Source: Candidatus Aridivita willemsiae (GTDB lineage Bacteria; Actinomycetota; CADDZG01; WHSQ01). Taken from it: 35,192 nucleotides of DNA. This document shows, in pieces, positions 31,071 through 35,192 of this stretch. The stretch lies in the NCBI GenBank assembly GCA_013695835.1, contig JACCZU010000149.1, forward strand, positions 1 through 35,192, written 5' to 3'. Every line of letters begins with the position of its first letter. Position 1 is the first letter of the stretch. The notes below the pieces were generated by a model that saw nothing but the letters and a program-made list of their open reading frames with translations, was not told where the DNA came from and did not search any database. Made by a program: the position numbers and the translations under genes.

Positions 31071-32096
31071 TCAACCGCCGATGTAGGACATCTCGACCCG
31101 GGGCGGGCCGATTGCTGCTTCGGAGCGGAGGTCTGAGTAGCGGTCGTCCCGCCCCCGCCATACCTTGGTGATGGCCTCGGCAAGGGTTGCGTCGTCTGCG
31201 TCGCTGCGAAGGAGCTGACGCAGGTCATAGCCTTTGCTTGCGAACAGGCAGGTGTAAAGGGAGCCTTCCGCCGAGATGCGTGCCCGGGTGCAGTCGCCGC
31301 AGAACGAGCGCGTAACCGAGGCGATGACTCCTATCTCGCCGGAGCCGTCGAGGTAACGGTAGCGGTCGGCGACCTCGCCCCTGTAGTTGGGCTCGGCGGG
31401 CTCAAGCGGCATCTCGGCACCGATCATCGTCACTATCTCGGACGCCGGCACGACATCGTCCATGCGCCAGCCGTTGGTCTCGCCGACGTCCATGTATTCG
31501 ATGAACCGTACGATGTGACCGGTCCCCTTGAAGTGGCGCGCCATGTCGACGACGCTGCCCTCGTTGAACCCGCGCCGCACGACCATGTTGATCTTTATGG
31601 GGGTAAGTCCTGCGGCGGCCGCCGCCTCTATGCCGTCGAGCACCCCGGAAACCGGGAAGTCGACGTCGTTCATCAGCTTGAACACGTCGTCGTCAAGCGA
31701 GTCGAGGCTCACGGACACCCTTGTGAGGCCGGCGTCCTTCAAGGCTTGGGCCTTGCGTGGCAGCATCGAGCCGTTCGTTGTCAGCGCAAGGTCGAGACCC
31801 TGGATGGCTGCGAGCTTGGCTATGAGCGTCTCGATGTTCTTGCGCACGAGCGGCTCGCCGCCGGTGATGCGGATCTTGGAGACGCCAAGGGGAACGAAGA
31901 TGCGGGCGATGCGCTCGATCTCCTCAAAGGTCAGGAGCTGGCGCCGCTCGAGGAACTGATAATCCCTTCCGAAGGCCTCTTTCGGCATGCAGTAGACGCA
32001 GCGGAAGTTGCAGCGGTCTGTGACCGAGATGCGGAGATCGCGCAGCGGCCGGTTGAAGATGTCGGTGATCCCGCCGTTTGCTCCCACGTCACCCAT
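31071..32096 (-). CDS. moaA: GTP 3',8-cyclase MoaA
   Basis: A 341-residue radical-SAM enzyme that converts GTP to 3',8-cyclo-GTP, the first step of molybdopterin cofactor biosynthesis. The N-terminal cluster is CNFRCVYC (Cys29, Cys33, Cys36), with [12 protein letters not shown] as the SAM-binding GGEP motif. The C-terminal cluster is [10 protein letters not shown] with a third Cys in LYTCLFA. The C-terminal Gly-Gly needed for MoaA activity is present (SYIGG). The ATG at 32096 lacks a clear ribosome site and lies 21 nt after the NfuA-like gene, so the two are probably co-transcribed. No other moa genes are in the window. Confidence 0.96.
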
Positions 32097-32117: not shown

Positions 32118-32849
32118 CTATTTCTTCGAGGCCTCGAAGTAGGGATTGCTGCCGGACGCGTGGTCGGTCACGTCGGCAACACGAGTGATCTCGGGCACGG
32201 CTTCTGTGATGGCTACCTCGATGCCCTGGCTGAGAGTTACGGTCGCCATGCCGCAGCCCTGGCACCCGCCCGAGAGCCGTAGATATGCGATACCGTCGTC
32301 CACCGCCACGAGTTCGGCGCGCCCTCCGTGAGACGCGATCTGCGGGTTGATCGACTGATCGAGCACCTGGGAGACGCGCTGGGCCACATCGCCTGATAGG
32401 TCCGCCGGCGGGGCGCTGCCCACGGCCGGGCTTGCGCTCGCCGGAGCGGGCGTCGGCAGGATCGGCAGCATGCCCATCGGGGGGCCTGCCTTGTTGGGGT
32501 TTCTGAGGATCAGCCCCCCGCCCTGGTAGGGGTCACCCTCGAAATCGATCGTCGCCCCGCGCACCTTGTCGATGCCTGAAGCGGGCACGACGATCGAGAG
32601 GTCGTCATGCGCAACGACGGTGTCCTCAGGCGCCGCCTGATCGACGGGCAGGAGGTACATGTCATAGGTGTGCTCGGATCCCTGGGCGCCCGTTATCTCG
32701 AGCCAGAGGGCAAGACGACCGGGCTCGGTGTCCCGTTCCCTGATCTCGAGGATGGTTGATAGAGCCGTTTCCGTGATCATCACAAGCGGCGCCTGAGGCG
32801 CCTCCGCCCCGCCGCCCCTGCGCTGCCACAATCCAAGTGGCCTTTTCAC
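32118..32849 (-). CDS. NfuA-like Fe-S carrier protein
   Basis: A 243-residue protein combining an N-terminal HesB/IscA-like domain (about residues 25-120; TILEIRERDT, IDFEGDPYQGGGLILRNPN) that lacks the three cluster cysteines, a Pro/Ala linker, and a C-terminal NifU-like domain. The NifU part holds INPQIASHGGRAELVAV and the Cys pair SGGCQGCGMATVTL, which would bind a shared 4Fe-4S cluster in a dimer. This is the NfuA order, a late-acting carrier that delivers clusters to apo-enzymes such as the radical-SAM proteins nearby. The GTG at 32849 has GGAG 7 nt upstream; the ATG at 32780 is an alternative that drops 23 residues. It is divergent from the ATP-grasp gene. Confidence 0.85.
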   Translation of the reverse strand: MKRPLGLWQRRGGGAEAPQAPLVMITETALSTILEIRERDTEPGRLALWLEITGAQGSEHTYDMYLLPVDQAAPEDTVVAHDDLSIVVPASGIDKVRGATIDFEGDPYQGGGLILRNPNKAGPPMGMLPILPTPAPASASPAVGSAPPADLSGDVAQRVSQVLDQSINPQIASHGGRAELVAVDDGIAYLRLSGGCQGCGMATVTLSQGIEVAITEAVPEITRVADVTDHASGSNPYFEASKK

Positions 32850-32914
32850 AACATCACTCCAGTCCTTGGGACCCTCAAGGGGGCCCTCCGTATCCCTTGC
32901 GTCATGATAGAGCC

Positions 32915-34198
32915 ATGGTGAACGTTGAGTCTGCGGTCCCGCCGAGGCGGCCCCATGCTGAGTCTGCGGTCCCGCCGAGGCGGCCCCGCGTGGTGCTGCT
33001 TTTGCCCTCTGAGTCTTACAGGGCCGCCGAATTTCTCGACGCCGCCCGAGCGCTTGGTGTGGACGTCGTGATCGGCTCCAACGGTCGGTTCGCAATTGCA
33101 GACGCCATGGCCGAGGCCCCGCTCCTCCTCGACTTCGAAGCGCCGGAGGCCGGCGCCGAGGCCATCGCCGCCTATGCCCGCTCGACGCCGGTCGAAGCAG
33201 TCGTCGCCACAGACGACGGGGGAGTGCTCGTTGCGGCGCTCGCCGCCGAGCGGCTCGGTCTTGCAAGCAATCTCCCGGCAGCGGCGGCGGCCACTCGAGA
33301 CAAGGCGGCGCTGCGACGCGCCCTCGACGAGGGCGGGATACCTCAGCCTCGCTACCGGCTTGCCCCGCCGCGCGCCGACATTCCCGAGCTCGCACAGGAG
33401 GTCGGCTACCCGGTCGTGATCAAGCCCGTGTCCTTGTCGGCAAGCAGGGGAGTGATCAGAGCCGATGACGCCTCCTCGGCGGCGCTCGCTGGGGCCACGG
33501 CGCGCTCGATCTGCGAGGCCGCCGGTGTCCCCGCCGGTCAACCGCTCCTCGTCGAGAGCTACTTGCCCGGAGTTGAGGTTGCTCTCGAGGGGATGCTGAG
33601 GGACGGCGACCTCGAGGTCCTCGCGCTGTTCGACAAGCCCGATCCCTTGGAGGGCCCTTACTTCGAGGAGACGATTTATGTCACCCCGTCGCGCCTCCCG
33701 GCCGATCTGCAGGAGGCGATCACAAAGATGACCGCTCGGGCGATCACGGCGATCGGCCTCACCGAGGGCCCGGTTCACGCCGAGCTGCGCGTTCACGACG
33801 GCGATGTCCGGATGCTCGAGGTCGCGGCGCGCTCGATCGGGGGGCTGTGCTCGCGTTCGCTGCAGTTCGGATTTGGAGTGACTCTCGAGGAGCTCATTCT
33901 CAGGGGCGCTCTCGGGCTGCCCCAGCGGGAGCGCGGGAGAACCTGGGCCGCCTCGGGCGTGATGATGATCCCAATCCCTCGCCGGGGCAAGCTGCTTGAG
34001 GTGCGTGGGCAGGCAGCAGCGCGCGCGGTTCCTGGTATCGCCGGCCTCAACATCACTGTCGCGCCGGGTCGGGACCTCAGACCACTCCCGGAGGGGGACC
34101 GCTATCTGGGCTTCATGTTCGCACGCGGCCCCAGCCCTGAGGAGGTCGAGGGCGCCCTCCGCGCCGCGCACGGTTTGCTCGACATCGCCATCGAATGA
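32915..34198 (+). CDS. ATP-grasp domain protein, upstream partner of a radical-SAM gene
   Basis: A 427-residue ATP-dependent carboxylate-amine/thiol ligase-like protein. The N-terminal Rossmann-like part begins RVVLLLPSESYRAAEFLDAA at about residue 25. ATP-grasp motifs include YPVVIKPVSLSASRGV (ATP-binding lysine), VESYLPGVEVALEGML and the metal-binding end MLEVAARSIGGLCS. A C-terminal cap (GKLLEVRGQAAARAVPGI) resembles biotin carboxylase-like members. The first 25 residues are an 11-residue tandem repeat (ESAVPPRRPHA), so a start at the GTG near 32990 is possible. The ATG at 32915 follows CATGAT at 6 nt, a possible leaderless promoter. Its stop overlaps the radical-SAM start (ATGA). The ligated substrates are unknown. 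Confidence 0.88.
   Translation: MVNVESAVPPRRPHAESAVPPRRPRVVLLLPSESYRAAEFLDAARALGVDVVIGSNGRFAIADAMAEAPLLLDFEAPEAGAEAIAAYARSTPVEAVVATDDGGVLVAALAAERLGLASNLPAAAAATRDKAALRRALDEGGIPQPRYRLAPPRADIPELAQEVGYPVVIKPVSLSASRGVIRADDASSAALAGATARSICEAAGVPAGQPLLVESYLPGVEVALEGMLRDGDLEVLALFDKPDPLEGPYFEETIYVTPSRLPADLQEAITKMTARAITAIGLTEGPVHAELRVHDGDVRMLEVAARSIGGLCSRSLQFGFGVTLEELILRGALGLPQRERGRTWAASGVMMIPIPRRGKLLEVRGQAAARAVPGIAGLNITVAPGRDLRPLPEGDRYLGFMFARGPSPEEVEGALRAAHGLLDIAIE
32927..32987 (+). repeat. 33-bp tandem duplication at the 5' end of the ATP-grasp gene
   Basis: Two identical 28-bp units (GAGTCTGCGGTCCCGCCGAG and eight more bases) lie at 32927-32954 and 32960-32987, a 33-bp period that keeps frame and doubles an ESAVPPRRP peptide. 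It sits just inside the proposed start, so it is either a recent in-frame duplication or part of the leader of a gene that really starts near 32990. Confidence 0.85.
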
Positions 34199-35192
34199 AC
34201 GTCGTTTTGGTGTCCACCTACGAGCTTGGCCGCCAGCCGTTCGGGCTTGCATCGCCGGCCGCGTGGCTCGAACGGGAAGGGGCACATGTGAAGTGCCTCG
34301 ATCTCGCCGTCCAGTCCCTCGACGGCGATGTGATCGCGGCCGCCGACGTAATCGCCTTCCACGTGCCCATGCACACGGCGACGAGGCTTGCGATCGAGGT
34401 CTTCAAGAGCGTGCGAACGTTGAACCCGGACGCGCACTACTGCTTCTACGGGCTCTACGCGCCGATGAACGAGCACTTCCTGCGCAAGGAGGGGGCGCAC
34501 TCGATCATCGGAGGTGAGTTCGAGGCGCCGCTCGCTGCGCTTGTGGGGCGGTTGTCGGAAGGCTCCGCCCCGCGCCGCCATGAGACAGTCGTGTCGCTCG
34601 GCCGGCAGAGGTTCGTTGTCCCCGACCGGACCGGCCTTCCGGCCCTCGAGGACTATGCGCATCTGCACGTGGGGCCGGGCGAGGTCCGCAAGGTCGGCTA
34701 CACGGAATCGACGCGCGGCTGCAAACATCTCTGCAGTCACTGCCCCGTCGTACCGGTCTACGGGGGCAGGTTTCGCGTCGTGGCGAAAGACGTCGTGCTC
34801 GGCGACATCGCGCAGCAGGTCGAGGCAGGCGCGCAGCACATCACCTTCGGGGATCCGGATTTCTTCAACGCTCCCGGCCATGCGCGCGCCGTGATCGAGT
34901 CAGTCCACGACCGCTGGGCGGACCTCACCTATGACGTAACGATCAAGATTGAGCATCTCCTGAAGCAAGCTCACCTGGTGCCTCGGCTCAAGGACACGGG
35001 GTGCTTGTTTGTCACCAGCGCAGTGGAAAGCGTCGACGAGCGCATTCTCGCCATCTTCGACAAGAACCACTCAGGGGCGGACTTCGGGCGCGCCGCTGCG
35101 CTGTGCAAAGGTGCGGGCCTAACTCTGAACCCGACCTTTGTCGCGTTCACACCCTGGACCACCCTCGAGGGTTACCTGGATCTCTTAGGCGC
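34195..35192 (+). CDS. Radical-SAM protein with N-terminal B12-binding-like domain (runs off the window)
   Basis: About 332 residues are visible; the 3' end lies beyond the window. Residues 1-110 (MNVVLVSTYELGRQPFGLAS, AADVIAFHVPMHTATRLAI, YCFYGLYAPMNEHFLRKEG) have the Rossmann layout of a cobalamin-binding domain. They lack the DxHxxG motif, so cobalamin may not bind in the standard way. The radical-SAM cluster motif is STRGCKHLCSHCP (Cys176, Cys180, Cys183), followed by QHITFGDPDFFNAPGHA and VTIKIEHLLKQAHLV. The ATG overlaps the ATP-grasp stop, so the two are coupled. It resembles, from memory, an NCBI-described radical-SAM (seleno)protein family named for a CUAEP/CCAEP C-terminal tail; that tail would be off-window. 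Confidence 0.88.
   Translation, partial: MNVVLVSTYELGRQPFGLASPAAWLEREGAHVKCLDLAVQSLDGDVIAAADVIAFHVPMHTATRLAIEVFKSVRTLNPDAHYCFYGLYAPMNEHFLRKEGAHSIIGGEFEAPLAALVGRLSEGSAPRRHETVVSLGRQRFVVPDRTGLPALEDYAHLHVGPGEVRKVGYTESTRGCKHLCSHCPVVPVYGGRFRVVAKDVVLGDIAQQVEAGAQHITFGDPDFFNAPGHARAVIESVHDRWADLTYDVTIKIEHLLKQAHLVPRLKDTGCLFVTSAVESVDERILAIFDKNHSGADFGRAAALCKGAGLTLNPTFVAFTPWTTLEGYLDLLG

Follow-up and report, generated by a model that had tools for sequence, protein, structure and literature searches.

An overlapping ATP-grasp ligase and CUAEP/CCAEP-family radical-SAM gene very likely encode a dedicated two-enzyme pathway

The last two genes of this stretch raise the question of whether an ATP-grasp ligase and a radical-SAM protein that overlap at the very end of a contig form a biosynthetic system of their own and, if so, what such a system makes. 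The window, that is, the whole analysed stretch of 35,192 nucleotides, comes from an assembly of 2.5 Mb in 302 contigs (98.9% complete); position 35192 is the last base of the contig and falls within the radical-SAM gene (Table 1). The missing C-terminus was absent elsewhere in the assembly in searches with the family model, with the C-terminal stretch of a close relative's protein and with a DNA pattern. The initial annotation had described the two genes as a pair overlapping by ATGA, and the reading frames bear this out: the ligase ORF closes with GAA TGA, and the last base of the GAA codon opens the ATG of the radical-SAM ORF.

Table 1. Features of the gene pair and its surroundings at the end of the window.
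Feature	Position	Strand	Basis
ATP-grasp ligase, L-amino-acid-ligase type	32915-34198	+	PF13535, PF18603, fold match 3vot
Radical-SAM protein, CUAEP/CCAEP-tail family, first 332 residues	34195-35192	+	NF040546; tail beyond contig end
ATGA stop/start overlap, ligase to radical-SAM	34195-34198	+	sequence
CxxxCxxC [4Fe-4S]/SAM motif, CKHLCSHC	34720-34743	+	sequence; C176, C180, C183 invariant in alignment A2
Nfu-type Fe-S carrier	32118-32849	-	PF01106 79.6 bits; TIGR03341 108.1 bits, under its cut-off of 269
Divergent intergenic region, 65 bp, Nfu-like gene / ATP-grasp gene	32850-32914	.	gene coordinates
MoaA, GTP 3',8-cyclase	31071-32096	-	TIGR02666 384 bits, cut-off 284
Dispersed repeat, 2 copies, in the ATP-grasp N-terminal ~22 codons (ESAVPPRRP x2)	32927-32986	+	similar copies elsewhere in genome

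The radical-SAM protein had been guessed to belong to a family named for its CUAEP/CCAEP tail, and this guess proved right. The fragment matches the family model NF040546 with 490.8 bits, against a cut-off of 500, over profile positions 1–335 of 468; the part of the profile left unmatched corresponds to the sequence beyond the contig end, where the gene is cut. Full-length relatives from the same family of genomes, with their tails, score above the cut-off (570–627 bits), and two Actinomycetota MAG proteins that are 78–79% identical to the fragment reach 625–627 bits and end in WYC-UGA-AEP. The radical-SAM assignment is carried by a PF04055 match and the CxxxCxxC motif. The degenerate B12-binding-like N-terminus noted at the outset is seen as a PF02310 match of 28.1 bits, under the threshold of 32.1, and the CUAEP family alignment contains no conserved DxHxxG; cobalamin binding without this motif is possible. 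The family enzyme is laid out as a B12-like domain lacking DxHxxG, a radical-SAM barrel, a linker at positions 428–455 and the tail, with pLDDT below 50 for the linker and above 80 for the tail in the predicted model. Compared with solved structures, the window protein found no match by single-sequence search and the family profile found remote ones only; in a fold search with the family enzyme, AprD4 and OxsB were the nearest structures.

Since the tail of the window protein itself lies out of view, its nature was approached through relatives. Tails were assessed in 61 loci: 46 read C-UGA-AEP, 14 carry Cys (CCAEP, or CCAAP in L065), and one gene is cut or frameshifted upstream of the tail. 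The 42 bases 3' of the codon fold more stably in genes with a UGA tail than in those with a Cys tail (mean −15.8 versus −10.0 kcal/mol), and the difference persists against synonymous resampling (z −1.16 versus −0.04, p 7e-4). Beginning 12 bases after the UGA, a SECIS-type hairpin of 7 bp with a five-base loop is paired in 90.7% of cells, compared with 70.2% after shuffling and 39–56% in slid controls, and compensatory changes occur in six of its seven pairs (covariation score 0.630 versus 0.244; 0/500 shuffles). SelA was found in all 12 genomes with a UGA tail that were tested and in two of seven with a Cys tail (p 0.002). Judged from these sequence signals, we consider selenocysteine coding to be real at the level of the family. 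The initial annotation had suggested looking for a UGA with a SECIS element and for selenocysteine genes; the former was found, with a covarying hairpin, in the relatives, whereas neither SelA, SelB nor tRNA-Sec was detected above cut-off in the source genome (98.9% complete). The tail of the source genome's own protein is therefore probably of the Cys form, most likely CCAEP (Cys-Cys), and selenocysteine in the window copy is unlikely. A related observation concerns a plasmid gene of Thermomicrobium roseum DSM 5159 (L166:7935-9434), whose annotated end, WFC, is followed in the DNA by UGA-AEPLEDPSGP; the deposited protein appears to be truncated at a selenocysteine codon.

The protein encoded by the upstream gene combines an ATP-grasp domain (PF13535, 96.7 bits) with LAL_C2 (PF18603, 61.5 bits), the C-terminal domain of L-amino-acid ligases. 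Its predicted model (pLDDT 88.6) has 3vot as top fold match (E 3.7e-30), the L-amino acid ligase BL00235 being its best solved relative, and K130, K170, E290 and R292 are invariant among 20 orthologues, with E302 nearly so. Domains, fold and invariant residues together indicate that the ligase is very probably an active, amide-forming enzyme, and amide ligation is the likely role we predict for it in the pathway. Its N-terminal extremity is of a different kind. A GC-rich 27-bp repeat occurs there twice in tandem at a spacing of 33 bp and has 29 further similar sites in the genome (0/100 shuffles by chance), several of them in open frames, and relatives 72–75% identical hold part of the repeat at the same position; this repeat is outside the conserved enzyme. 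In one other genome, the MAG G009, the ligase gene beside the radical-SAM gene (L041:149-1497) is itself split by apparent frameshifts, and an intact second copy of the ligase gene is present on another contig.

Do the two genes belong together beyond this contig? Presence was called in 396 Acidobacteriota genomes at E ≤1e-80 for the radical-SAM protein and E ≤1e-50 with profile A1 for the ligase, and the two lists were compared. The radical-SAM gene was present in 64 genomes (16%), the ligase in 68 and both in 63, so that all but one of the radical-SAM-positive genomes also hold the ligase (Fisher p 5e-66, a value that overstates the evidence because the genomes are related by descent). The stronger point comes from unlinked cases: the genes are close together on one contig in 43 of the 63 genomes, and in the other 20 they occupy separate contigs or are some 30 kb from each other. 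In the window's own class, the ligase accompanies the radical-SAM gene in all seven genomes that carry it, and both genes are present twice in G002. Across the 61 loci, the ligase lies within 6 kb of the radical-SAM gene in 43, upstream, downstream or on the opposite strand, and such variation in order and strand indicates that the linkage has been kept or re-formed. Against the pairing stand four radical-SAM carriers without a detectable ligase (G492, G042, G157 and T. roseum, for which the plasmid alone was searched) and seven ligase carriers without the radical-SAM gene; outside the window's class, G042 and G157 belong to the former and G010 and G015 to the latter. The initial annotation had made its proposal of a dedicated system depend on whether the genes are neighbours in related genomes, and they are adjacent in several phyla and co-occur even where unlinked. 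The radical-SAM/ligase pair is in our view a real functional unit, and it is very likely that the two genes form a dedicated two-enzyme pathway.

What this pathway makes is best approached through the closest known enzymes. In a tree of 54 proteins, including the CUAEP family, four ArsL-type and 16 other B12-type radical-SAM proteins, CUAEP and ArsL-type proteins form one clade separate from the 16 others (support 100/100), with CUAEP as one group (74/65). By sequence, then, the nearest characterised relative of the family is ArsL, in a sister clade. The label "undescribed" that had been attached to the system accordingly fits the pair and what it makes, but not the radical-SAM lineage. In arsinothricin biosynthesis, ArsL is proposed to transfer the aminocarboxypropyl (ACP) group from SAM to As(III) (PMC8552651), and a 2025 review cites later biochemical work on this transfer (PMC12159101). 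All four ArsL sequences share 42 of the 71 conserved CUAEP positions, among them the terminal pair C467/C468, and 25 of the 42 are rarely seen in the outgroup; 17 further positions, H182, K251 and H292 among them, are missing from all four. Because of these 17 positions and an identity to ArsL of 32%, substrate and chemistry may differ from those of ArsL; ACP-type chemistry by the radical-SAM enzyme appears plausible, the case for it and the case against it being almost in balance. Of four ArsL-type clusters inspected, the three from Alicyclobacillus (ATP-grasp gene at L168:1436-2668), Priestia (L169:1741-2964) and Pantoea (L170:6572-7777), all RCCLKC-type and on plasmids, also contain an ATP-grasp gene; the Pseudomonas cluster shows none within the stretch shown. 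The Alicyclobacillus protein is 26% identical to the window ligase over 315 residues. Their presence suggests that peptide forms of arsinothricin may exist, and the literature searched contains nothing on arsinothricin together with ATP-grasp.

We tentatively propose the following two-step pathway, in which (i) the radical-SAM enzyme, through ArsL-like chemistry, would make an unusual amino acid, and (ii) the ATP-grasp ligase would activate a carboxylate with ATP and join this amino acid to another, giving a dipeptide-like product. For the second step the enzyme class is established by domains and fold, and the substrate is what we infer. The terminal Cys-Cys or Cys-Sec pair, which a flexible linker carries, may swing like an arm; mobile arms bearing a vicinal Cys pair are known from MerA and thioredoxin reductase, and the analogy is an attractive one. 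The two-step pathway is favoured by the co-occurrence of the two genes, the kinship with ArsL, the common terminal pair, the ATP-grasp genes in ArsL-type clusters, the parallel with phosphonopeptides, for which ATP-grasp ligases couple a previously made unusual amino acid to other amino acids (PMC11867202), the lack of a conserved precursor peptide and the transporters described below. It is weakened by the modest identity to ArsL, the 17 absent positions, the lack of ars genes, the carriers without a partner and the AprD4 and OxsB folds. Cleavage of SAM to ACP is not known for either AprD4 or OxsB. Their being the closest folds, together with conserved residues that are specific to CUAEP proteins and unlike ArsL, lends some weight to a reversed order. 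The ATP-grasp enzyme would then act first, turning ordinary amino acids into a dipeptide or an amide, which the radical-SAM enzyme would modify by a 5'-deoxyadenosyl radical while its Cys-Cys or Cys-Sec tail acts as the reductant; other enzymes, thioredoxin reductase among them, use a C-terminal Cys-Sec pair as a redox centre. However, synthesis of the amino acid first is favoured by the sister relation to ArsL, by the terminal Cys pair and further conserved residues in common with it, and by the ATP-grasp genes of ArsL-type clusters, and we regard the reversed order or another radical chemistry as unlikely.

The surroundings of the pair bear on a further possibility. As initially noted, an Nfu-like gene adjoins the pair; comparison with locus L043 makes its GTG at 32849 the likely start. 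Near the 61 loci, Nfu-like genes occur in 25, YggX-like genes (PF04362) in 23 and ApbC/Mrp in three. These neighbours, the absence of resistance or arsenic genes nearby and the wide distribution could be explained if the product were a general redox or metal-handling metabolite, such as a protective dipeptide, a thiol or a metal ligand, rather than an antibiotic-like compound. Yet the Fe-S carriers may just serve the radical-SAM enzyme, to which Nfu, YggX and ApbC/Mrp probably supply clusters, and the 16% of sampled Acidobacteriota that hold the radical-SAM gene are scattered through the phylum in a way unlike that of a general cofactor; we find this explanation quite unlikely. Returning to the two-step pathway, POT or SSF transporters adjoin many Acidobacteriota cassettes, a hint of a peptide-like product. 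MoaA had been placed beside the pair as well; its identity stands, but among the surveyed loci it lies near the gene in just four besides the window, and it is probably a mere neighbour and not part of the system. Other genes recur locally. MoaA or FdhD is nearby in some Actinomycetota loci, DUF169 (COG2043) is near the radical-SAM gene in four loci from Actinomycetota and Acidobacteriota (L054, L060, L061, L107), and a molybdopterin oxidoreductase lies about 3–9 kb from the cassette in 14 Acidobacteriota loci (L123, L125, L129-L130, L134, L137-L138, L140-L141, L143-L145, L049, L051), possibly as local synteny. As candidate parts of the system, DUF169, the molybdopterin oxidoreductase, a LigD phosphoesterase domain protein and FdhD (two loci) were rejected, since they look like local synteny.

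That ArsL is the nearest characterised relative also invites the narrower reading that the products are specifically arsinothricin-like arsenicals. This we consider highly unlikely, because tblastn gave no match to ArsM, ArsQ, ArsR or ArsN1 in the 61 loci and the window, so that an arsenic cluster was rejected, and because the fragment scores 243.7 bits with the ArsL model NF040542 against a cut-off of 450. RiPP pathways make use of radical-SAM as well as ATP-grasp enzymes, but a system in which the two would modify a ribosomal precursor peptide is almost certainly not at hand: the ligase is of the free amino-acid type and, in keeping with the absence of a precursor noted initially, none of the small ORFs around the cassette is conserved from one lineage to another. 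The sole recurrent small ORF, at 11 Acidobacteriota loci, looks by sequence like a KGG-repeat stress protein.

A broader hypothesis, speculative and somewhat unlikely as a whole, extends the two-step pathway to a widespread, undescribed group of peptide metabolites in which one amino acid would bear a carbon–heteroatom bond (selenium, arsenic, phosphorus, antimony or similar). A Sec-tailed ArsL-like enzyme would use its Cys-Sec arm to deliver the acceptor atom, and the dedicated ATP-grasp enzyme would finish the product, in Acidobacteriota, Actinomycetota and Pseudomonadota, with the radical-SAM enzyme alone in Chloroflexota and Thermomicrobiota. If ArsL-like chemistry holds, non-canonical SAM cleavage for carbon–heteroatom bonds would be far commoner than the few arsinothricin producers imply, and many environmental bacteria would produce element-containing peptides that have so far stayed hidden. 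The analysis gives a selenoprotein family that had a name and no function its place in a defined two-enzyme pathway whose reaction can be tested, and the frequent exchange of Sec and Cys at one tail position offers a natural test of how selenium benefits a radical enzyme.

In comparison with known systems, the family NF040546 already has a name and a model, and what the present analysis documents is its ligase partner, its SECIS hairpin and its Fe-S neighbours. The literature searched makes no mention of CUAEP, though earlier work elsewhere may do so; a 2026 selenoproteome review does not have NF040546 among its models. Compared with ArsL (NF040542), whose tail reads RCCLKC, the CUAEP relatives end in (C/U)AEP, and the terminal Cys pair is common to both; among the relatives with a readable tail, every tail is (C/U)AEP, or CCAAP in L065, and none is RCCLKC. 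The ligase shares its fold (TM ~0.8) and the combination of ATP-grasp and LAL_C2 domains with the L-amino acid ligases BL00235 (PDB 3vot) and BacD/YwfE (3vmm, 3wnz), but at 24% identity it represents a family of its own, tied to the radical-SAM gene. The pathway logic resembles that of the phosphonoalamides (PnaB/PnaC), with the difference that here the amino acid would come from a radical-SAM enzyme.
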